A stretch of DNA of 64,000 nucleotides from Nostoc calcicola FACHB-3891 (GTDB taxonomy: Bacteria > Cyanobacteriota > Cyanobacteriia > Cyanobacteriales > Nostocaceae). This document shows positions 34,010 through 62,943 of the stretch, piece by piece (positions within the stretch are counted from its first letter, which is position 1; every line of letters starts with the position of its first letter). The notes below the pieces were generated by a model, which ran no database searches, was not told the DNA's origin, and saw only the letters and a list, made by a program, of their open reading frames with translations. The DNA lies in contig NZ_JACJRQ010000001.1 in NCBI RefSeq assembly GCF_014697355.1, positions 124,001 to 188,000 on the forward strand, given 5' to 3'. The position numbers were made by a program, and so were the translations under genes.

Positions 34010-34324
34010 AGTCTAAACTAGACAATTACAGCAGTTGTCAATTTCGATAGAATACACGTTATTTGTAGGGGCGCACAGCTGTGCGCCCCTACCACGTTTT
34101 GTATCCAAAGATTTTTAAAACCCGCCTGCGCGGATTTTGTCTCTGTAGCGGCAATTTCTATAGCGCATCTCGTTTATCTAAAATACACTTTGACCTCTCT
34201 CCAAACCTCACCCCTACAAGGAGAAAGGCTTTGAATCTTACTCCCCTTCCCTTGTAGGGAAGGGGCTGGGGGTTAGGTTTATATTAGACTCCACCGAGAA
34301 GCGCTAAGTCGCCAGGGCATTTTT
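34010..34324. repeat. Intergenic region with palindromic dispersed repeats
   Basis: Bases 34065-34092 form a perfect palindrome of the GTAGGGGCGCACAG / CTGTGCGCCCCTAC type. Bases 34195-34280 contain a CCTCTCTCC...CCCCTTCCCTTGTAGGG element common in cyanobacterial spacers. No gene is seen. Confidence 0.65.
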
Positions 34325-34572
34325 GAGCCTCAGAAGGTCAACTTTGAGCCTCAGAAGGTCAACGTCGAGCCTCAGAAGGTCAACGTCGAGCCTCAGAAGG
34401 TCAACGTCGAGCCTCAAAAGGTCAACGTCGAGCCTCAGAAGGTCAACGTCGAGCCTCAGAAGGTCAACGTCGAGCCTCAGAAGGTCAACGTTGAGCCTCA
34501 GAAGGTCAAAGTTGAGCCTCAGAAGGTCAAAGTTGAGCCTCAGAAGGTCAACATTGAGCCTCAGAAGGTCAA
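34325..34572 (+). repeat. 21-bp tandem array 1 (12 units) upstream of STAND gene 1
   Basis: Twelve units with an exact period of 21 bases. Each begins GAGCCTCAGAAGGTCAAC, followed by three variable bases (GTC, TTT, GTT or ATT). The array ends 102 bases before the ATG of the STAND gene. A multiple of three keeps several frames open on both strands: a SLRRST heptapeptide on one plus frame and EPQKVN on another. Neither has a good start codon, so I treat it as DNA or RNA repeat and not protein. Confidence 0.92.
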
Positions 34573-34674
34573 TGCATAAAAATTATCTAAAAAAAATTTC
34601 ATAAATTCCGAAATACACCTTGTATATTTAGTAATTATTTTGTAAGCATTAGCACCCCAAGATTTAATCTTGTA
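34573..34674 (+). promoter_or_regulatory. Conserved leader of STAND gene 1
   Basis: This 100-base segment is closely similar to 37921-38034 upstream of STAND gene 2 (shared: ATAAATTCCGAAATA, TGTAT-TTTAGTA-TTAT, CATTAGC, then AATCT-GTAATG). Two paralogues keeping the same leader suggests a shared promoter or regulatory site. No canonical ribosome site is seen before the ATG. Confidence 0.6.
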
Positions 34675-37371
34675 ATGAACCCACAAAACAAGCCCAAAAA
34701 CCTACAAGATATTATTAAGCAACGTCAGCAATTAGGTTTTGTGGGTCGTGAAGACCAAATAAACCAATTTCGGCAAAATCTAACATTACCCCCAGAAGAC
34801 ACTCGCCGTCATTTTTTGTATAACATTTGGGGTGAAGGCGGGGTTGGTAAAAGCACACTTGTACGACAGTTTCGCAAAATTGCTGAAGAAGCAAAAAATA
34901 TTACGGCTTATATAGATGAAGCCGAGAAAACTGTACCAGAAGTTATGGGTCGTCTAGCTGAAGACTTGGAACGGCAAGGTCATAAGTTGCCGCAGTTTGC
35001 CGAACGCTACAAAGTTTACCGTCAGAAGCGCCAAGAATTAGAAACCGATCCCGATGCTCCTCAAGGTTTTTCGGCTTTTGTGGGAAAAACTGTAGTTAAA
35101 ACTGGTGTGCGTCTGGCGCGTCGAGTTCCCGTTGGCGGTGCTGTATTTGACTTTGTAGATGAGGATGCTTTGGCTAGCCAAGCTGGAGAATGGGCTTCTT
35201 ATGTTGCTAAGAAAATCACAAATAAAGATGAGGTGCGGTTAGTTCAAGAACCTGTGGAAGTCCTGACCCCACTATTTTTACGAGATATTTTTAAAATTTG
35301 TGAGAAAACTGCTATTGCCTTGTTTTTTGATACTTATGAACGCACCGGGGAATTCTTAGATAACTGGTTACGAGAAATTCTAGAGGGTCGCCACGGTGAA
35401 GTATCTTTCAATATATTGATAACTATTGCTGGTCGGCAGGAATTAGATAAAAATTTTTGGACAAGCAACGAGGGGTTAATAGTTAGTTTTCCTCTGGAAC
35501 CTTTTACAGAAGAAGAAACCCGAAAATATCTCACTCGCAAAGGCATCACTAACAGTCAGCACGTTGAAGAGATTTTACGCCTTTCTGGAAACTTGCCCTT
35601 ACTAGTGGCAATGCTAACAGACGCTTATCAAAATAACCCTAACCAAATAATTGAGCCGAGCAGCAGTGCTGTAGAAAGATTTTTAAAATGGGTTGATGAA
35701 CCCAAACGGCGACAAATTGCTCTCGATGCTGCCATTGCTCGGTGCTTGAATCGGGATATTATCGCTCAGTTGAGAGGAGAACAAGAAGCTGATGAGCTAT
35801 TTACTTGGCTCAAAGAAATATCCTTTGTCAACGAACGTACCGACGGCTGGGCTTATCACGATGTCGTCAAAATGCTAATGTTACGCCACAAGCGCCTATC
35901 ATCACCGCAGGGTTGGGCTGAGATACATGGCAAGCTGGCAAATTACTACGACACCCTGCGGAACGATCTGCAATTAGAAGAAGAGAACAAACAGCGCGAT
36001 CCTAGCTGGCAAAGTCACACTTTAAATGTGTTGTACCACAGCTTATGTCAGTCACCGCAAAGGAATTTATCTGTAGCTCTCAATGAATTTCTTGCTGCAC
36101 TCAACAATCAACGCAAATTTGCCCAACAATGGGCAGAAACAATGTTTCAGGCTGGTAAAGATGTGGATTCTTCTGAAATTCAGCATTGGGGTGAGCAATT
36201 AACTAATGGGTTAAAAGCCTTTGAGGAAAAATTTTACCCAGTTACATTAGAAATGTTTACCGCAGTCGTACAAAATTCTAGGATTGAAGTTAAATGGCAA
36301 CCTATTGCTTTAGGTTGGCGCGGTATAACTTACCGTAACATGGAGCGTTACGCAGAAGCTCTACAAGATTTTGACCACGCAATTGAACTTAACCCCAAAG
36401 ATGACTGGGCGATTGCATGTCGCGGTGTAACTTACCGTAACATGGAGCGTTACGCAGAAGCTCTACAAGATTTTGACCGCGCAATTGAACTTAACCCTAA
36501 AGATGACTGGGCAATGGCAAGTCGCGGTGTAACTTACCGTTTAATGGGGCGTTACGCAGAAGCTCTACAAGACTTTAACCGTGCAATTGAACTTAACCCC
36601 AATGAACTTAACCCCAAATTTGACTGGACGATGGCAAATCGCGGTCAAACTTACCGTTTAATGGGGCGTTACGCAGAAGCTCTACAAGACTTTGACCGTG
36701 CTATTAAACTTAACCCCAAATTTGACTGGGCGATAGCAAATCGCGGTGAAACTTACTGTTTCATGGAGCGTTACGCAGAAGCTCTACAAGACTTTGACCG
36801 TGCTATTAAACTTAACCCCAAATCTTACTGGGCGACCAGACATCGCGGTATAACTTACCTTAACATGAAGCGTTACCCACAAGCCCTAAAAGATTTTGAC
36901 CGCGCCATTGAACTTAACCCCAAATCTGACTGGGCGATCGCACTTCGTGGTCAAACTTACTTAATGCTTAAACTGTACACTGAAGCTTTTGCAGATTTCA
37001 ATTGCGCTATTGATTTAAAATCTGAAAGTAATTGGTATTTATATAATCGCGCTTTAACTTACCTAGCCCTTAATCAACCAGACAAAGCACGAACTGACCT
37101 AGTGCTTGCCATCAATCTTGCTAAACAGCATTACGAAAAAGATCCTAAAGACTGGTGTAATGCGTTTAACTTAGCCCTTTACTATTTGGCTGCTCAATAT
37201 AATCAACCAGCAGAGCAGTTATATCGCTATGTTTTATCTCAAGGTGCTTCCTTAAAGCGTATTCATGGAGCTATCCAAGACCTAAATAATTTTTTAACTG
37301 TGTTTCCTAACCACGTGCAGGCTACATCTATGGGAGAGTTGTTGCAGTCTTCTCTAACTGAGGTCGTGTAA
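34675..37371 (+). CDS. STAND-type NTPase with TPR sensor, copy 1
   Basis: 898 residues. The N-terminal GFVGREDQINQF motif is followed by the P-loop GEGGVGKS (53-60), a Walker B region IALFFDTYERTG (near 222) and the GLPL-like motif LSGNLPLLVAML (near 308). This is the NB-ARC/AAA-like core of STAND signalling ATPases. Residues about 545-830 are tandem 34-residue TPR repeats (YAEALQDFDRAIELNPKDDW), encoded by nearly identical 102-bp DNA units. The C-terminal tail is shared with copy 2. STAND proteins act as ligand-triggered switches, several of them in phage defence or regulated cell death. No fused effector is visible. Function is inferred only to this level. Confidence 0.82.
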   Translation: MNPQNKPKNLQDIIKQRQQLGFVGREDQINQFRQNLTLPPEDTRRHFLYNIWGEGGVGKSTLVRQFRKIAEEAKNITAYIDEAEKTVPEVMGRLAEDLERQGHKLPQFAERYKVYRQKRQELETDPDAPQGFSAFVGKTVVKTGVRLARRVPVGGAVFDFVDEDALASQAGEWASYVAKKITNKDEVRLVQEPVEVLTPLFLRDIFKICEKTAIALFFDTYERTGEFLDNWLREILEGRHGEVSFNILITIAGRQELDKNFWTSNEGLIVSFPLEPFTEEETRKYLTRKGITNSQHVEEILRLSGNLPLLVAMLTDAYQNNPNQIIEPSSSAVERFLKWVDEPKRRQIALDAAIARCLNRDIIAQLRGEQEADELFTWLKEISFVNERTDGWAYHDVVKMLMLRHKRLSSPQGWAEIHGKLANYYDTLRNDLQLEEENKQRDPSWQSHTLNVLYHSLCQSPQRNLSVALNEFLAALNNQRKFAQQWAETMFQAGKDVDSSEIQHWGEQLTNGLKAFEEKFYPVTLEMFTAVVQNSRIEVKWQPIALGWRGITYRNMERYAEALQDFDHAIELNPKDDWAIACRGVTYRNMERYAEALQDFDRAIELNPKDDWAMASRGVTYRLMGRYAEALQDFNRAIELNPNELNPKFDWTMANRGQTYRLMGRYAEALQDFDRAIKLNPKFDWAIANRGETYCFMERYAEALQDFDRAIKLNPKSYWATRHRGITYLNMKRYPQALKDFDRAIELNPKSDWAIALRGQTYLMLKLYTEAFADFNCAIDLKSESNWYLYNRALTYLALNQPDKARTDLVLAINLAKQHYEKDPKDWCNAFNLALYYLAAQYNQPAEQLYRYVLSQGASLKRIHGAIQDLNNFLTVFPNHVQATSMGELLQSSLTEVV
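36318..36960 (+). repeat. In-gene 102-bp TPR DNA repeats
   Basis: Consecutive TPR codons share near-identical DNA (GAAGCTCTACAAGA-TTTGACC and GAACTTAACCCCAAA recur in each unit), more than protein conservation would need. One unit carries a 12-base duplication giving ELNPNELNPK. This indicates recent repeat expansion or gene conversion within the sensor domain. Confidence 0.8.
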
Positions 37372-37641
37372 TTTCTACTACAAATATTAAGCGATGCCTG
37401 GGTTGAGCTACGCCCAATACGTTTTGGTTAAGGTTTTTTCATCAAAATTCTAGATCCCAAAGACCCGATAAATCGCCGTCTCTACAAAGGATTGATTATT
37501 AGACATCTGGTGAAATTAATTCTGTGTTACCCGAAACCCTTGTAGAGACGTAGCATTGCTACGTCTCTACATTCATTTTCACGCCTATGTCTATTGTAGA
37601 GACGGCGATTTATCGCGTCTCTTACTCAATTGCTCAACTTT
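37372..37641. other. Spacer between STAND copy 1 and array 2
   Basis: Contains GTAGAGACG-type palindromes at about 37540-37570 (centre TAGCATTGCTA) and 37594-37622. Apart from the first bases after the stop, which still resemble those after copy 2, no gene is seen. Confidence 0.55.
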
Positions 37642-37920
37642 GAACCTCAGAAGCTCAACTTTAAGCCTCAGAAGGTCAACGTCGAGCCTTAGAAGCTCAA
37701 CCTTGAGCCTCAGAAGGTCAACGTCGAGCCTTAGAAGGTCAACCTTGAGCCTCAGAAGGTCAACTTTGAGCCTCAGAAGCTCAACTTTGAGCCTCAGAAG
37801 CTCAACTTTGAACCTCAGAAGGTCAACTTTGAGCCTCAGAAGGTCAACTTTGAACCTCAGAAGCTCAACCTCGAGCCTCAGAAGGTCAACCTTGAGCTTC
37901 AGAAGGTCAACTTTGAGCTT
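37642..37920 (+). repeat. 21-bp tandem array 2 (13 units plus a partial) upstream of STAND gene 2
   Basis: Thirteen full 21-base units and a truncated one, same period and consensus as array 1 but more degenerate: GAGCCTCAGAAG(G/C)TCAAC, with GAACCT, GAGCCTTAG and GAGCTTCAG variants. It ends 114 bases before the STAND copy 2 ATG. The unit is not found elsewhere in the window, so the array is specific to these two genes. Confidence 0.92.
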
Positions 37921-38034
37921 AAATCAATTTTAAATGCCAAAATTATGTAAAAAAAGTCCGATAAATTCCGAAATAGAGCCTGTATCTTTAGTAGTTATCT
38001 AGTAAACATTAGCGCCTCAAAATTAAATCTGGTA
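37921..38034 (+). promoter_or_regulatory. Conserved leader of STAND gene 2
   Basis: Counterpart of 34573-34674: shares ATAAATTCCGAAATA, TGTAT-TTTAGTA-TTAT, the CATTAGC block and the sequence just before the ATG. The array-leader-gene order is the same in both modules. Confidence 0.6.
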
Positions 38035-40893
38035 ATGAACCCACAAAACAAGCCCAAGAGTTTACAAGATATTCTTAAGCAACGTCAACAATCGGGTTTT
38101 GTGGGTCGTGAAGACCAAGTAAACCAATTTCGTGAAAACTTGGCTTTACCGTTAGAGAATGACCGCCGTCGTTTTTTGTTTAACGTTTGGGGAGAAGGCG
38201 GGGTTGGTAAAAGTACACTGTTACGCCAGTTTCGCAAAATTGCCGATGAAGCAAAAATTATCTCGGCTTACATCGATGAAGCTGAAAAAACTGTACCAGA
38301 AATTATGGGGCGTTTGGCCCAAGAGTTAGAACGCCAAGGTCACAAACTACCGCAGTTTACAGAACGCTACAAAGTTTACCGTCAAAAGCGCCACGAATTA
38401 GAAACCGATCCTCAAGCTCCTCAAGGCTTTTCGGCGTTTGTCGGCAAAACTATGGTAAAAACAGGCGTGCGTCTAGCGCGTCGAGTTCCCGTTAGTGGTG
38501 CTGTATTTGATTTTGTAGATGAGGATGCTTTGGCTAGCCAAGCGGGAGAATGGGCATCATATATTGCAAAAAAAATTACCAATAAAGATGAAGTGCTATT
38601 AGTTCAAGAACCTGAACAAGTGCTGACCCCGCTATTTTTGCAAGATATTTTTCAAATTGCTGACAAAACTGCTATTGCCTTGTTTTTTGATACTTACGAA
38701 CGCACGGGAGAATTTCTAGATAACTGGCTGCGGGAAATTTTGGACGAACGCCACGGTGAAGTATCTCTCAATATATTGATAACTATTGCCGGTCGCCATG
38801 AATTAGATAAAAATCATTGGGCACCTTACGAGGGGTTAATGATTCGTTTCCCTCTGGAACCGTTTACAGAAGAAGAAGCCCAACAATATTTAACTCGCAA
38901 AGGCATTACTAACAGTCGCGTTGTTGAAGTAATTTTGCGCCTTTCTGGAAACTTGCCCCTGCTAGTAGGAATGCTAGCAGATGCTCATCCCAATGACCCG
39001 AACCAAGTATTTGAACCTAGCAGTAGTGCTGTAGAAAGATTTTTAAAATGGGTTGATGACCCCAAACGGCGACAAGTTGCTCTCGATGCTGCCATTCCTC
39101 GGTGTTTGAATCGAGATGTGATAGCCAAGTTAAGAGGAGAAAAAGAAGCAGATGAGCTATTTACTTGGCTCAAAGAAACATCCTTTGTCAACGAACGTAC
39201 CGATGGCTGGGCTTATCATGATGTGGTGAAAACGCAAATGTTACGCCACAAGCGCCTTTCATCGCCGCAAAGTTGGGCTGAGATACATAGTAAATTGGCA
39301 GACTATTACGACACGCTAGGTAACCAATTGCAATTGGAGGAAGTAAAAGCTTGGCGCGATAAAACTTGGCAAACCTATAAGCTCAATGTTTTGTATCACC
39401 GCTTATGCCAATCACCACAAAAGTACTTACCTGTAGCTCTCAATGAATTCCTTGCTGCTCTCAAAAATCAACGGAATTTTGCCCAATTGTGGGCAGCAAC
39501 AATGCTTCAGGCTGGTAAAGATGTCGATTGTAGCGAAGTTCAGCGTTGGGGCGAGCAACTAGCCAATTGGTTAAAAGCCTATGAAGACAAACATTATGAA
39601 GCTGCGGCTCAAATGCTCACAACCCTGTTGAGCGATGCTAGCCTTGAGGACAAATGGCGTGCAGTAGCTTTAGATTGGCGGAGTTATATTTACTCTCAAT
39701 CTAATCAATACTCAAAAGCTTTAGAAGATTTAACCCAGGCGATAAAGTTAGTGCCTGAAGAAGTTGAGTATTTAACGGTTCGAGGGATGACTTATTCCCA
39801 AATGCAGCGCTACCAAGAAGCACTACTAGACTTTAATCGTGTTATTGAGCTTAACCCGAATTATCAATGGGCGATCGCAAGTAGAGGTGTGACTTACCGC
39901 CTGATGTACCAATATGATAAAGCACTACAAGACTTTAACCGCGCTATTGAACTTGACCCTAATGACCAATGGGCGCTGGCACATCGGGGTTCAACTTACT
40001 GCTATATGCACCAATATGAAGAATCACTGCAAAACTTAAACCGCGCCATCGAACTTGACCACAATTACCAATGGGCGATCGCAACTAGAGGTGATACTTA
40101 CCGCTATATGCGCCGATATGAGGAAGCACTGCAAGACTTCAACCGCGCCATTGAACTTGATGTCGATTACCAATGGACACCAGCCACGGGATTTAGGGGT
40201 TTTATTTACCGACGAATGCAACGCTACCATGAAGCACCGCCGCAAAGCTTAAACCATAGCATTGTACTTAACCCTAATTACCAATGGGTGCTGGCACGTC
40301 GTGGTTATACTTACCGCCAAATGCAGCGCTACAGTGAAGCATTACAAGATTTAGACCGTGCTATTCAACTCGATCCCAAAGATGACTGGTCACTGATAAA
40401 TAGAGGATATACGCATCTGATGCTTAAGCGCTACAATGAGTCTCTTGCAGATTTCACTCGTGCTGTTAACTTAAAATCTGATGTCGTTTTTCCTCACAGA
40501 CCTGAAGCCAGTGGGTTTCCAAACTCCCACCAGGTTTTTTATGATTGGTATTTGTATAATCGCGCTTTAGCCTACCTAGCCCTAAACCAACCAGACAAAG
40601 CACGGGCTGACTTGGAACTTGCAATGAAGCTTGCTAAAGAGCATTACGAAAAAGATCCTAAAAACTGGCGTAATGCCTTTAACTTAGCTCTTTACTATTT
40701 GGCTGCTCAATATAATCAACCAGCAGAGCAATTATATCGGCGTATCTTATCTCAAGGTGCTTCCTTAAATATCCGTATAGCAATCCAAATAGCAATCCAA
40801 GACCTGAATAACTTTTTAGCCGTCTTCCCTAACCACGTGCAGGCTACATCTATGCGACAGTTGTTGCAGTCTTCTCTAACCGAGGTTGTGTAA
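38035..40893 (+). CDS. STAND-type NTPase with TPR sensor, copy 2
   Basis: 952 residues, paralogue of the upstream gene. The NTPase half is strongly conserved: P-loop GEGGVGKS (53-60), ALFFDTYERTG, LSGNLPLLVGML and long identical blocks such as DEDALASQAGEWASY. The TPR half (about 560-800) has a different consensus (YQWAIASRGVTYRLMYQYDK), more units and less DNA-level identity, with an insert PHRPEASGFPNSHQV near 820. The tail (LALYYLAAQYNQPAEQLY) is again shared. The pattern of a conserved motor and tail with a divergent sensor suggests that the two copies detect different ligands. It is a tandem duplicate and includes the upstream array. Confidence 0.82.
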   Translation: MNPQNKPKSLQDILKQRQQSGFVGREDQVNQFRENLALPLENDRRRFLFNVWGEGGVGKSTLLRQFRKIADEAKIISAYIDEAEKTVPEIMGRLAQELERQGHKLPQFTERYKVYRQKRHELETDPQAPQGFSAFVGKTMVKTGVRLARRVPVSGAVFDFVDEDALASQAGEWASYIAKKITNKDEVLLVQEPEQVLTPLFLQDIFQIADKTAIALFFDTYERTGEFLDNWLREILDERHGEVSLNILITIAGRHELDKNHWAPYEGLMIRFPLEPFTEEEAQQYLTRKGITNSRVVEVILRLSGNLPLLVGMLADAHPNDPNQVFEPSSSAVERFLKWVDDPKRRQVALDAAIPRCLNRDVIAKLRGEKEADELFTWLKETSFVNERTDGWAYHDVVKTQMLRHKRLSSPQSWAEIHSKLADYYDTLGNQLQLEEVKAWRDKTWQTYKLNVLYHRLCQSPQKYLPVALNEFLAALKNQRNFAQLWAATMLQAGKDVDCSEVQRWGEQLANWLKAYEDKHYEAAAQMLTTLLSDASLEDKWRAVALDWRSYIYSQSNQYSKALEDLTQAIKLVPEEVEYLTVRGMTYSQMQRYQEALLDFNRVIELNPNYQWAIASRGVTYRLMYQYDKALQDFNRAIELDPNDQWALAHRGSTYCYMHQYEESLQNLNRAIELDHNYQWAIATRGDTYRYMRRYEEALQDFNRAIELDVDYQWTPATGFRGFIYRRMQRYHEAPPQSLNHSIVLNPNYQWVLARRGYTYRQMQRYSEALQDLDRAIQLDPKDDWSLINRGYTHLMLKRYNESLADFTRAVNLKSDVVFPHRPEASGFPNSHQVFYDWYLYNRALAYLALNQPDKARADLELAMKLAKEHYEKDPKNWRNAFNLALYYLAAQYNQPAEQLYRRILSQGASLNIRIAIQIAIQDLNNFLAVFPNHVQATSMRQLLQSSLTEVV

Positions 40894-47025: not shown

Positions 47026-47479
47026 AAACAATTGTTATAAGAGAATGACTATAGTTCTCATTGAGATATTTTAACAAATATGAGGAAGTTTTTTTGAGTC
47101 GCATAAGTTGTGAAATCTGCTTTTAGACGCGCTTGAAAGGAAAAATACTATCCCATCAACTGGAACAACCAGGAAATTTCTCCAGGTATATAGCCAAAAC
47201 CTTCTCATAAAGGTTACAATTATTAATATTAATCCAATAGAAGAATGTTTAAGAAATTACCTTTTATCTAACTGTAGATACTTGTGGAAAGCAGGAAATA
47301 ACTGTAACTTTTAGCAGTTAAGAAGCTCAATTTTGATTATTTATGAGCAGCCGAATTTATCGGGCGCGTAAGTTGCAAACCATAGCATGGGTTCCCAGCC
47401 TGACTGGATAGCACCCATACAGAGCATCTATCCCTTAATGACCCTACCGTCAAACCCATCATTATCAAAGAGTAGCGCC

Positions 47480-48436
47480 ATGAAGACCGCTCAGACAGCC
47501 ACAGACCTCGTGCGGACTTACCTGCGTGAGATTGGCCGTGTGCCACTCTTAACCCACGAGGAAGAAATTTCCTATGGTAAGCAGGTGCAACGTTCAACGG
47601 CCTTGCACGAATCGCGGGAAAATCTTGCCACCCAGTTAGGTCGCCAACCAACTCTCGAAGAGTGGGCGAAAGCGACAAAATTAGAACCAACAGAGTTGAA
47701 CGAAGCGATCGCCGATGGTGAAATTGCTAAGCGCAAAATGGTAGAAGCCAATTTGCGCCTAGTGGTTTCCGTTGCCAAAAAATACATCAAGCGCAACGTC
47801 GATTTACTGGACTTGATCCAAGAAGGTAGTATCGGAATGCAACGCGGCGTGGAAAAGTTTGACCCCACGAAAGGCTACAGGTTTTCTACCTATGCCTATT
47901 GGTGGATTCGCCAAGCGATTACCCGTGCTATAGCCGAAAAAGCTCGTACCATTCGGCTGCCTATCCACATAACCGAAAAATTAAATAAAATTAAAAAGGC
48001 ACAGCGGCAATTGTCTCAAAAGTTGGGACGCGCTCCCACAGCTGGTGAGCTAGCTGAAGAATTAGAATTGACACCAAAGCAAGTGCGAGAGTATTTGGAA
48101 AAGGCGCGTTTGCCTCTTTCTTTAGATTTGCGCTTGGGTGATAACTACGACACCGAACTTGGAGAAATGCTGGAAGATCCAGGAGCTTCTCCAGAAGAGT
48201 TTGTGATGCAATCTTCCCTATCTTATGACTTAGAGCGCCTGATGGGTGACCTGACGCCACAACAGAGGGAAGTAATCACGCTGCGCTTTGGTTTAACTGA
48301 CGGGCAAGCCCTGACTCTGGCAAGAATCGGTGAAATTCTCAACATTAGTCGGGAACGAGTCCGGCAAATCGAGCGGGAAGCCTTAACAAAACTTCGCAAA
48401 TCTAAAGCCAACATGGATGAATATTTGGCAAGTTAG
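47480..48436 (+). CDS. sigD: Group 2 sigma-70 factor (SigD-like)
   Basis: About 318 residues from the chosen start. Regions in order: 1.2 ([21 protein letters not shown]), 2.1-2.4 ([61 protein letters not shown], given here in its known order), 3 and 4.2 ([20 protein letters not shown]). The lack of a long region 1.1 marks a non-essential group 2 factor. The frame is open to ATG 47387 with possible starts at 47438 and 47480. I use 47480 because [15 protein letters not shown] begins the conserved part. SigD naming rests on gene order next to carB, recalled from Anabaena. Confidence 0.85.
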
Positions 48437-50948: not shown

Positions 50949-51614
50949 ATGAGTATTACTCCAGAGTCTGTTAAGCAATTGCTTAGTTCTCAGGATTTGG
51001 GCGATCGCTTGCGTGCAGTAAATCAAATCCGTCAACTAGAACCAGCCATCGGTTTTGAATTGATTCAAAGTGCCATTGCTGATAGCAACTCCCGTGTCCG
51101 GTATTCAGCGGTGAGTCAAATGGATACACTCGGAAAACAGGATTTACAGTTATCTTTGGATATTCTACGCGATCGCTTGCTCAATGACTCCGAAATAGAT
51201 GTACAAGCAGCAGCAGCAGATTGCTTGGGCGCTCTGAAGTTACATGAAGCTTTTGAAGATTTGCAGAAACTCTATAATACAACCGATGAATGGCTAATAC
51301 AATTTAGTATCATTGCTACACTAGGTGAGTTAGGCGATCCACGAGCTTTTGAACTACTTAAACAGGCACTCTCTTCAGACAATGAATTAGTCCAAACTGC
51401 GGCTATTAGTTCTTTGGGTGAGTTGGGCGATACACAAGCGATTCCCCTTTTAGCTCCTTTTGCTACCCATCCAGATTCGCAAATCCGTTACAGACTCGTA
51501 CAAGCTTTGATTCATTTGGGTAGTCCAGAAGCCAAATCTATATTAGAAACTCTGGTTAACGATGGTGTAGAAGCGATCGCTACTGAAGCTAGAAAATATT
51601 TGCAATCAGCTTAA
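50949..51614 (+). CDS. nblB: HEAT-repeat phycobilisome degradation protein NblB
   Basis: 221 residues made of about six HEAT-like helical repeats (LSSQDLGDRLRAVNQIRQLE, SRVRYSAVSQMDTLG, ELVQTAAISSLGELGD). Length and the N-terminal MSITPESVKQLLSSQDLGDR match my recollection of the cyanobacterial NblB, which is related to phycobilin lyases of the CpcE/F type and takes part in phycobilisome disassembly during nutrient starvation. ATG start. Other HEAT-repeat lyase relatives are the alternative, but none of the CpcE/CpcF neighbours are present. Confidence 0.78.
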   Translation: MSITPESVKQLLSSQDLGDRLRAVNQIRQLEPAIGFELIQSAIADSNSRVRYSAVSQMDTLGKQDLQLSLDILRDRLLNDSEIDVQAAAADCLGALKLHEAFEDLQKLYNTTDEWLIQFSIIATLGELGDPRAFELLKQALSSDNELVQTAAISSLGELGDTQAIPLLAPFATHPDSQIRYRLVQALIHLGSPEAKSILETLVNDGVEAIATEARKYLQSA

Positions 51615-61143: not shown

Positions 61144-62943
61144 ATGGCGTGGAATCCAGGGCAGCAGTTGTTTGGCGATCGCTACATCATCGAGAGAAAA
61201 TTAGGCGAAGGTGGCATAGGCATAACCTATCTGGCAAAAAATCAACGCGGTGAGTTGCGTGTAATCAAAACCCTTAGAGAACAAATCCTGAATCATCCTG
61301 ATTGGATACCACATCAAGATAAATTACGGCACGACTTCCGGGATGAAGCTTTGCGACTGGCTTTGTGTCGCCATCCTCATATTATGCAGGTAGAAAATGC
61401 CTTTGATGAAGGTAATTTTCCCTGCATGGTGATGGAGTATATCGAAGGCGAAGATTTAGGGAAGCTGATAACCGAAAAAGGGGCATTACCAGAAGCAGAA
61501 GCACTACTATATATTAGGCAAATTGGCGAAGCTTTGACACTGGTTCACGAAAAAGGCTTACTACATCGGGATTTAAAGCCGGGTAACATTATGATGCGTG
61601 CGGGTAAACCAGAGGCCGTGCTAATTGACTTTGGTATTGCCAGACAATTTATTCCCGGTGGAGTTCAACAACACACACAAAATCTTACTCCTGGTTATGC
61701 ACCACCAGAACAGTATTTACCTGATGCCGAACGGGGAGAATATATTGATGTTTACGCCTTAGCTGCTACGTTATATTCTTTGCTGACTGGAGAGTTGCCT
61801 ATGGCAGTGCCAGTAAGACTGCAAAATTTTACCATGCGATCGCCTAAAGAATTGAATAGCAGTGTTAGCGATCAGGTGAATGAGGCAATTATGAAGGGGA
61901 TGGCGTTAAATTACAAATTTCGTCCCCAGTCGGTGCAAGAGTGGTTGGATTTGTTGGGTGAGGAGATAGTAGCACCAACACAACCTGTACCAACACAGTC
62001 AGTAAAATTTTCTACTCACATACCCCCATCTTGGCAATGCGCCCATATCATCCCAGGTGGTTACTCCAATAATTGGGTTAATTCCCTAGCCTTCAGTAAT
62101 GATGGTCAAATACTGGCTAGTGGTGGTGGTAATGGCGTTATCAAACTGTGGTCAGTGGCAACAGGGAGAGAAATTCGCACTCTCAGTGATCATTCCAACT
62201 GGGTTAATTCCTTAGACTTCAGTAGTGACGGGCAAATACTGGCTAGTTGTAGTAGAGACAGGACTATCAAACTGTGGTCAGTGACAACAGGGAGAGAAAT
62301 TCACACTTTCACTAGTCATTCCGATGAGGTTACTTTTGTAGCCTTCAGCAGTGATGGGCGAATTCTGGCTAGTGTTAGTGGGAACAAAAATATCGAACTG
62401 TGGGAAGTCAAACTGTGGGAAGTTGCAACAGGTAGTGAAATTCGTACCCTAGCTAGAGGTTCTGACCCTGTTTATTCCATTGCCTTTAGTAGTGATGGGC
62501 AAATGCTAGCTATTGGAGGAAAGAGCGTTATCAAACTGTGGTCACTTGCAACAGGTAGTGAAATTTACAGGCTGGCTGATGAGCCTTACGGAGACTTTAA
62601 ATCTGTCGTTTTCATTCATAATGGGGCAGGTCTGGCTAGTGCTGGAGACATGACTATCAAACTGTGGGAAGTCACAACAGGCAGAGAAATTCGCACTCTC
62701 TTTGTTCCTTTTTTGGAGTGGGTTACTTGCATAGCCTTCAGTAGTGATGGGCAAATACTGGCTAGGGGTAGTAGAGACAAAACCATCAAACTGTGGGAAG
62801 TCGCAACAGGGACAGAAATTTGCACCTTCAATCTTTTCGACTCAGTTTTTTCCGTTGCCTTTAGCTCCGATGGAGGTTGGCTGGCTGCTGGTGATGGTAG
62901 CGGAAATATCAAAATTTGGCGATCGCAGCTAGTTGTAGAATAA
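61144..62943 (+). CDS. Serine/threonine kinase with seven WD40 repeats
   Basis: 599 residues. Kinase domain (about 1-275): glycine loop LGEGGIGITYLAKNQ, ATP Lys in RVIKTL, catalytic loop LHRDLKPGNIMMR, DFGIARQF and APPEQYLPD. It is followed by a linker and a C-terminal seven-bladed WD40 propeller (about 305-599), each blade ending in IKLW-type DxxxW motifs (VNSLAFSNDGQILASGGGNG). Seven full blades allow a closed ring. In blade 3 the segment LWEVKLWEV is a local duplication. Such kinases are multi-copy in Nostoc; targets are unknown. Confidence 0.88.
   Translation: MAWNPGQQLFGDRYIIERKLGEGGIGITYLAKNQRGELRVIKTLREQILNHPDWIPHQDKLRHDFRDEALRLALCRHPHIMQVENAFDEGNFPCMVMEYIEGEDLGKLITEKGALPEAEALLYIRQIGEALTLVHEKGLLHRDLKPGNIMMRAGKPEAVLIDFGIARQFIPGGVQQHTQNLTPGYAPPEQYLPDAERGEYIDVYALAATLYSLLTGELPMAVPVRLQNFTMRSPKELNSSVSDQVNEAIMKGMALNYKFRPQSVQEWLDLLGEEIVAPTQPVPTQSVKFSTHIPPSWQCAHIIPGGYSNNWVNSLAFSNDGQILASGGGNGVIKLWSVATGREIRTLSDHSNWVNSLDFSSDGQILASCSRDRTIKLWSVTTGREIHTFTSHSDEVTFVAFSSDGRILASVSGNKNIELWEVKLWEVATGSEIRTLARGSDPVYSIAFSSDGQMLAIGGKSVIKLWSLATGSEIYRLADEPYGDFKSVVFIHNGAGLASAGDMTIKLWEVTTGREIRTLFVPFLEWVTCIAFSSDGQILARGSRDKTIKLWEVATGTEICTFNLFDSVFSVAFSSDGGWLAAGDGSGNIKIWRSQLVVE

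Follow-up and report, generated by a model that had tools for sequence, protein, structure and literature searches.

Tandem arrays of strictly 21 bp, dispersed in Nostocaceae genomes, keep their place upstream of STAND-TPR genes while their unit sequence mostly follows the host genus

Two genes in a 64,000-nucleotide stretch of the genome of Nostoc calcicola FACHB-3891 (hereafter, the window) encode STAND-like NTPases with tetratricopeptide repeats (TPR), and each of them is preceded by a 21-bp tandem array and a short leader. STAND NTPases with TPR sensors are known from the NB-ARC, NACHT, and nSTAND families. The window proteins resemble them in the order of a P-loop NTPase followed by a TPR superhelix, but their NTPase part gives only weak Pfam matches. 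For the arrays, the closest described systems are short repeat families. Elhai and coworkers reportedly described in 2008 short dispersed repeats (SDR) of 21–27 bp in Nostoc punctiforme, which were Nostoc-specific, shared in some cases a common secondary structure, and occurred as single dispersed elements. The window arrays, by contrast, are long and head-to-tail.

STRR-type heptamer repeats, as in Nostoc and Xanthomonas, likewise form intergenic head-to-tail arrays; those of Xanthomonas lie mostly between the same genes in two genomes, keeping their position and varying in length and sequence (PMC4692102). The window unit of 21 bp shows no internal 7-bp period (identity at lag 7, 0.28 and 0.29), and the arrays were not assigned to this type. 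REP/BIME palindromes and REPINs are small, dispersed, and partly palindromic, with families that vary by genome, as in the present case (PMC3733652, PMC3116915). However, among the 80 phased array consensuses, none contained the tag GTAG and 21 contained CGTC (either strand), CGTC would fall at positions 18, 19, and 21, which are among the most variable of the unit, and the 21-bp units abut without flanking DNA between them. NsiR1, a tandem small-RNA array upstream of the regulatory gene hetF in Nostoc, has about 60 nt per copy with a promoter in each copy, and a 21-bp unit is too small for such a copy (PMC9045159). A CRISPR array was also considered and rejected; the units are head-to-tail and spacers are absent. 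No description of 21-bp arrays in Nostocales was found among the listed titles and abstract starts of the literature searched, most subscription papers being outside its coverage.

We searched 217 genomes of the family and obtained a match to the NTPase part in 85, many of them weak and distant. Homologues were kept when the match started within 20 residues and reached residue 500, giving 60 rows and 49 unique homologues, and upstream DNA was examined to 700 bp (just 445–697 bp was present for 11 of the 49). A 21-bp array was found in this region in 36 of the 44 homologues with identities of 70% or more and in none of the five more distant ones (56–62% identity). The expectation named beforehand in the preliminary description of this DNA, that most homologues bear an array, thus held for the close homologues. 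Genera, genomes, contigs, and array loci are coded g, G, C, and L as in the analysis, g1 being the own genus. In g1, an array preceded 26 of 30 homologues, 23 of them at 100–117 bp from the start codon and three at 242–312 bp; in other genera it preceded 10 of 14, at 130–423 bp. Three of the eight array-less close homologues retained a match of 15–18 of 18 to one unit, at 118–141 bp. Arrays were located upstream of the STAND-TPR gene in seven genera (g1, g3, g6, g7, g27, g38, and g53); g6 rests on one genome with a short homologous fragment (G011), and G016 of g7 is similar, with G015 supplying the full g7 homologue. Relative to the gene, every one of the 33 phased Nostoc-type arrays located here had the same orientation.

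Partial or broken homologues gave a mixed picture. Seven carried an array within 450 bp upstream (G132, G145, G110, G107, G112, G016, and G011), and seven partial or distant ones had none within 700 bp (G193, G066, G033, G034, G035, G194, and G170:C12), nor did four more distant paralogues (L109–L112) have one. G108, with no upstream DNA, was left out of the upstream count, and G162 was scored array-less, its array being 1006 bp upstream. STAND homologues interrupted by stop codons in G107:C6, G112:C170, and G145:C44 still retain the upstream array.

At the STAND-TPR locus, the unit sequence mostly matched the host genus rather than the gene clade. Own-genus loci carried GAGCCTCAGAAGGTCAACGTC-like (Nostoc-type) units, and GAGCCTCAGAAGG-type units were found in the own genus and in two g27 genomes (G078 and G080). 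Loci of g3 carried GAGTTCTGATCTCGG-type units, and those of g6, g7, g38, g53, and G079 of g27 carried units with AGAACGTT or a close variant. The g3 unit agrees with the Nostoc-type unit at 14 of 21 positions (shuffle P 0.005), which suggests that it may be a diverged form of the latter. In the gene tree, copy 1 clustered with G120 and G124, and copy 2 with G126, G114, G128, and G135 plus g3 and g15 genes. The clade of copy 2 includes Nostoc-type as well as g3-type arrays. Because copy 2 groups with genes of other genera but has a Nostoc-type array, the sequence of the array tends to go with the host genome, and its position with the gene. The tree also bears on the preliminary description, which had read the locus as a duplicated module: the twofold order of array, leader, and gene is as it stated (Table 1), but the two genes fall into different supported clades and therefore do not stem from a recent duplication.

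The arrays of the window are members of a dispersed, strictly 21-bp tandem array class. The own genome contained eight arrays of the window unit (two on C1 and one each on C7, C9, C15, C18, C40, and C45), six of them outside the STAND-TPR locus. The C9 array lies inside an nSTAND1-WD40 gene, the C45 array 716 bp from a NACHT gene, the C15 array 125 bp from a TPR gene, and the C18 array about 1 kb from an NB-ARC-TPR gene; the C7 and C40 arrays adjoin an ABC-C39 transporter and a DUF3368 gene. DUF3368 genes were seen at two own-genome arrays, L010 (7034–7519, a weak match below the cut-off) and L011 (6405–6932), 151 bp away and with a 3-bp overlap, respectively. Outside the STAND-TPR locus, 12 near-complete genomes (the own and 11 others) held 41 array loci, and these sites were often common to several strains. 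The 41 loci were merged by hand, three weak single matches (G104:C1:247754, G105:C1:6421784, and G124:C1:3844215) were left out, and the very short L125 and L149 were not phased. Other genera possess dispersed arrays of their own, and a second 21-bp family in the own genome gave 18 matches at about 16 loci.

Since the window unit forms arrays at many other loci, the array is not private to STAND-TPR genes; it often lies beside unrelated genes, which the preliminary description had named as a refutation of its reading. Its claim that the array belongs to the STAND system is supported in part: retention at close homologues and in seven genera speaks for it, and the six other loci of the same unit in the own genome, the dispersal of other unit families, and the prevalence of period 21 in the own-genome sample speak against it. 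Its strong form, a dedicated part of the STAND system that was duplicated with it, seems hardly credible: the same retention speaks for it, but the loci elsewhere in the own and the 11 other genomes, as well as the two window genes not being sister copies, speak against it.

As the best explanation, we tentatively propose a phased DNA element that is homogenised within each genome, lies just upstream of a conserved leader, and is probably bound by a putative host protein. Two turns of B-DNA span 21 bp, so the units would lie on one face of the helix. The array would act as a cis element at the DNA level. A putative host-encoded DNA-binding protein with a genus-specific preference would coat it, and the coated array would determine how the adjoining gene is expressed or locally structured; here, it would probably hold the ligand-triggered STAND switch low or insulate it. 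Exchange between arrays, or selection by the putative binding protein, would keep the units alike within a genome. The retention of place and period while the unit sequence swaps with the host genome would fit a protein-bound, helically phased array. The uniform orientation at the STAND-TPR locus is also in favour of this proposal, as are the scarcity of indels, the prevalence of period 21 in the own genome, the dyad of the unit, and the enrichment beside long-repeat genes, which are described below.

The strongest alternative, a doubtful but serious one, is a functionless minisatellite class, in which slippage and unequal exchange act on the arrays, ectopic gene conversion homogenises them, and old sites, the STAND locus among them, are kept by descent. 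The many unit families and loci, such as the eight arrays of the window family and the second family in the own genome, agree with it, as do the sites common to strains beside ordinary genes; the Xanthomonas heptamer repeats offer a parallel (PMC4692102). By itself, however, such a class predicts neither a single period of 21 nor few indels, nor does it predict that an array persists at one locus in seven genera while its sequence turns over, or that arrays are enriched beside long-repeat genes. The period was sharp in the window arrays: identity at lag 21 was 0.96 in array 1 and 0.88 in array 2, and 0.20–0.30 at lags 3, 7, 9, 10, 11, 14, 20, and 22. In a 400-kb sample of the own genome, four of five qualifying arrays (noncoding, at least four copies, period at least 10, not heptamer-built) had period 21 and one had period 236. 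Over the whole of this test, in the own and other genomes, two 47-bp arrays were excluded as heptamer-built with lag-7 identities of 0.63 and 0.65, near the threshold of 0.6. Substitutions and indels numbered 1385:10 in 79 arrays, compared with 121:5 in 34 arrays of 7–9 bp. For 22 leaders compared pairwise, the ratio was about 25:1.

Genes with long coding tandem repeats were sought within 4 kb of array loci and in control windows. In other genera, such a gene was present at 12 of 20 array loci and 0 of 40 controls (P 9e-8), or at 11 of 19 and 0 of 40 (P 2.7e-7) when L187, which has no array called by Tandem Repeats Finder (TRF), was removed. To these 20 loci, G158, G207, G039, and G011 contributed their non-STAND-TPR matches, and G015 contributed three of its four; matches in other genomes of those searches were not taken. 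At Nostoc sites, the figures were 5 of 18 against 3 of 67 controls (P 0.009), the 18 sites being the hand-merged loci (unmerged count, 11 of 41). Pfam assigned the long-repeat neighbours to NB-ARC-TPR, NACHT with a WD40 open reading frame (ORF) behind, kinase-WD40, CHAT-TPR, NACHT-pentapeptide, and nSTAND1-WD40 types. Like arrays beside so many repeat-sensor genes could offer homology for recombination, by which sensors would be duplicated, swapped, or juxtaposed. Such exchange handles would agree with the array-gene-array-gene order of two genes from different clades, with homologue pairs on one contig that each have their own array (G120, G125, G128, G133, and G143), and with arrays adjoining NB-ARC-TPR, NACHT/WD40, NACHT-pentapeptide, and CHAT-TPR genes. 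However, both window genes retain their own leaders and full length, and a fixed 21-bp period would be unnecessary for exchange, which makes this an unlikely explanation of the arrays.

In the Nostoc-type family of 72 arrays, unit positions 2, 6, 10, 16, 17, and 20 were nearly invariant, and 19 and 21 were the most variable. Among the 748 units of these arrays, one dyad axis was prominent, with a complementarity of 0.64 (next best 0.39). This complementarity favours a protein-site signature, but we did not retain the dyad as one in view of its asymmetric variability and the dyad-less F2–F7 (see below). Coding by the arrays was also considered. Of the six frames, three contained a stop codon in 58–65 of the 67 phased arrays that lie outside genes, and the other three in 3–13; the mostly stop-free frames follow from the unit itself. 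A conserved start was not seen, and the in-frame case (nSTAND1-WD40) is one gene family, and this candidate was rejected.

Folding of the arrays raises a further alternative, a structured RNA transcribed from the array, for example, as an antisense transcript. On the reverse strand, 126-base pieces of arrays 1 and 2 folded strongly relative to dinucleotide shuffles (z −7.4 and −4.1; plus strand, −1.5 and −1.8). A-C mismatches, which are G-U on the reverse strand, numbered 1261 against 117 for G-T, and with G-U allowed the reverse strand paired better in 72 of 72 arrays. When the null model preserved the period, however, the mean reverse-strand z was just −1.4 over 68 arrays, which are not independent of each other; the reverse strand was more stable in 59. 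The sense strand folded better in two arrays at the STAND-TPR locus (g38 and g7), and Rfam gave a single match up to E 1, far below the gathering score. We therefore regard a structured RNA as very improbable.

Several results weigh against the protein-bound phased element that we favour. The analysis turned up no protein partner of the arrays, and the array-binding protein is a putative one. G078 and G080 of g27 bear Nostoc-type units and G079 does not, so the sequence does not follow the genus strictly. A paralogue on contig C60 of the own genome has no array, and many of the 41 loci lie beside ordinary genes (VTT, glycosyltransferase, GNAT, ABC-C39, FecCD, pentapeptide, and others). The rule of period 21 is thinly based beyond the own genome: 400 kb of four other genomes yielded one period-21 and one period-11 array. 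The dyad is weak, because 300 column shuffles averaged 0.46 and reached 0.645 at best; unit variability was not symmetric about the axis (P 0.27), and F2–F7 showed no dyad. The scarcity of indels may stem from array turnover or from how TRF detects arrays. Among the 12 enriched loci in other genera, five carry paralogues of one TPR family, and the P value is therefore too small. Furthermore, the g38/g53 arrays L178, L179, L181, L182, L185, and L186 sit 24–55 bp away from the 3′ ends of TPR genes that belong to one cluster, and in five genomes (L013, L116, L126, L139, and L142) the array is in frame within genes of the nSTAND1-WD40 cluster. Neither the 3′-end arrays nor the in-frame ones are accounted for by a promoter element.

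Additional features of these genes were noted. NB-ARC was present in two of three Pfam-scanned TPR genes of the g38/g53 cluster with 3′-end arrays. The in-frame arrays of nSTAND1-WD40 genes add a 7-residue repeat peptide of about 43–113 residues, and in the three of these five genes checked with Pfam the array falls inside the NTPase match.

A wider possibility, improbable on present evidence, is a genus-specific recognition system of Nostocaceae, in which fast-changing 21-bp phased arrays and a co-evolving putative DNA-binding protein would mark and control NLR-like sensor genes (STAND-TPR, NB-ARC-TPR, NACHT/WD40, and nSTAND1-WD40), forming a chromatin-like layer over the bacterial immune-receptor repertoire. 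Noncoding bacterial DNA that keeps its position and period while its sequence is replaced between genera is unusual. If a host protein does read the arrays, they would provide a handle on how multicellular cyanobacteria restrain dozens of potentially dangerous STAND sensors. If none does, they would be a clear natural example of short repeats that evolve in concert across a genome.

The proteins encoded by the two window genes were also analyzed. Pfam AAA_16 matched near the N-terminus of copy 1 (E 5.7e-8, 33.9 bits, cut-off 32.6) and, below the cut-off, of copy 2 (E 3.5e-7, 31.3 bits), and nSTAND_NTPase5 matched copy 2 at 4.4e-4, below its cut-off. Both copies had many TPR matches, consistent with a C-terminal repeat superstructure, and their Pfam matches included no separate N-terminal effector domain. 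Residues G53, G55, G56, G58, K59, and D219 were invariant across 40 sequences, as in a P-loop NTPase core. Alignment by hhalign to the NB-ARC profile gave a probability of 77 and E 2e-5 over 44 columns, covering the P-loop part only. G305, L307, P308, L309, L310, Y394, and H395 were invariant in nine sequences; these residues may mark candidate GLPL/GxP, winged-helix, and MHD-like motifs, although the corresponding domains were confirmed by no profile.

The AlphaFold2 model of copy 1 (mean pLDDT 81.6, pTM 0.60) was confident in the helical-repeat part and of moderate confidence in the N-terminal alpha/beta part. Foldseek and VIA searches with the full-length model gave lists dominated by TPR proteins, and NB-ARC/NACHT entries were absent among the matches listed (best 50) by either. 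A homologue search returned 1091 proteins, of which the best 120 were mostly named ‘tetratricopeptide repeat protein’ and came from Nostoc and relatives. In Nostoc linckia NIES-25, a close homologue (P0013, 85% identity) is annotated as plasmid-borne.

Between the two copies, dN was 0.108 in the NTPase part, 0.328 in the TPR part, and 0.081 in the last 115 residues, with dN/dS of 0.18, 0.29, and 0.19, respectively. In five pairs of close orthologues, dN/dS was 0.25–0.63 in the TPR part and 0.10–0.36 in the NTPase part, the TPR alignment being blurred by changes in repeat number. These values bear out the preliminary description, in which the NTPase half and the tail were conserved and the TPR half, which also differs in length, had diverged. 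The sensor half evolves faster, in line with the diversified sensor of that description, yet with dN/dS below 1.

Table 1. Positions of the arrays, leaders, and STAND-TPR genes in the window
Feature	Position	Strand	Evidence
Array 1, 21-bp tandem repeat, consensus GAGCCTCAGAAGGTCAACGTC	34325..34572	+	TRF: 11.8 units, 96% match, 0% indels; lag test
Leader 1, 102 bp, from array to start codon, conserved in orthologues	34573..34674	+	Alignment; promoter scan
STAND-like NTPase with TPR repeats, copy 1, 898 aa	34675..37371	+	ORF, Pfam, homologue search, AlphaFold2 model
Array 2, 21-bp tandem repeat, consensus TCAACTTTGAGCCTCAGAAGG, same family as array 1	37634..37918	+	TRF: 13.6 units, 87% match, 0% indels; lag test
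Leader 2, 116 bp, conserved	37919..38034	+	Alignment
STAND-like NTPase with TPR repeats, copy 2, 952 aa, clade other than that of copy 1	38035..40893	+	ORF, Pfam, tree

Leaders 1 and 2 could be aligned to one another and to the leaders of orthologues. Conservation extended throughout the own-genus loci and was partial in other genera, array-less loci included. A promoter-like TTGTAT-17-TAAGCA was spotted by eye in leader 1; the promoter consensus scan did not call it, so a leader promoter is an inference. A perfect, terminator-like palindrome starting with GTAG lies at 34065–34092 and matches further loci in the own and a related genome; judged by its sequence, it looks like a dispersed GTAG-type REP. 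A second terminator-like palindrome (37541–37571), closely upstream of array 2, also has matches at other loci.

The preliminary description had proposed looking for co-occurrence with defence islands. A PADLOC scan of 14 window proteins revealed no clear island: both STAND genes matched only two generic TPR models (best 2.1e-11) and no defence STAND model, and nine of the 14 proteins had no match. A 349-aa protein (47387–48436), 6.5 kb from copy 2, matched the C-terminal third of the model MzaA (1.5e-47), and 50949–51614 matched HEAT-ARM_XIII (2.8e-12). Two window kinases matched the PD-T4-6 and mad6 kinase models. A kinase-like gene matching PADLOC kinase models (61144–62943) contains a 126-bp tandem repeat of 2.6 copies at 62074–62403.

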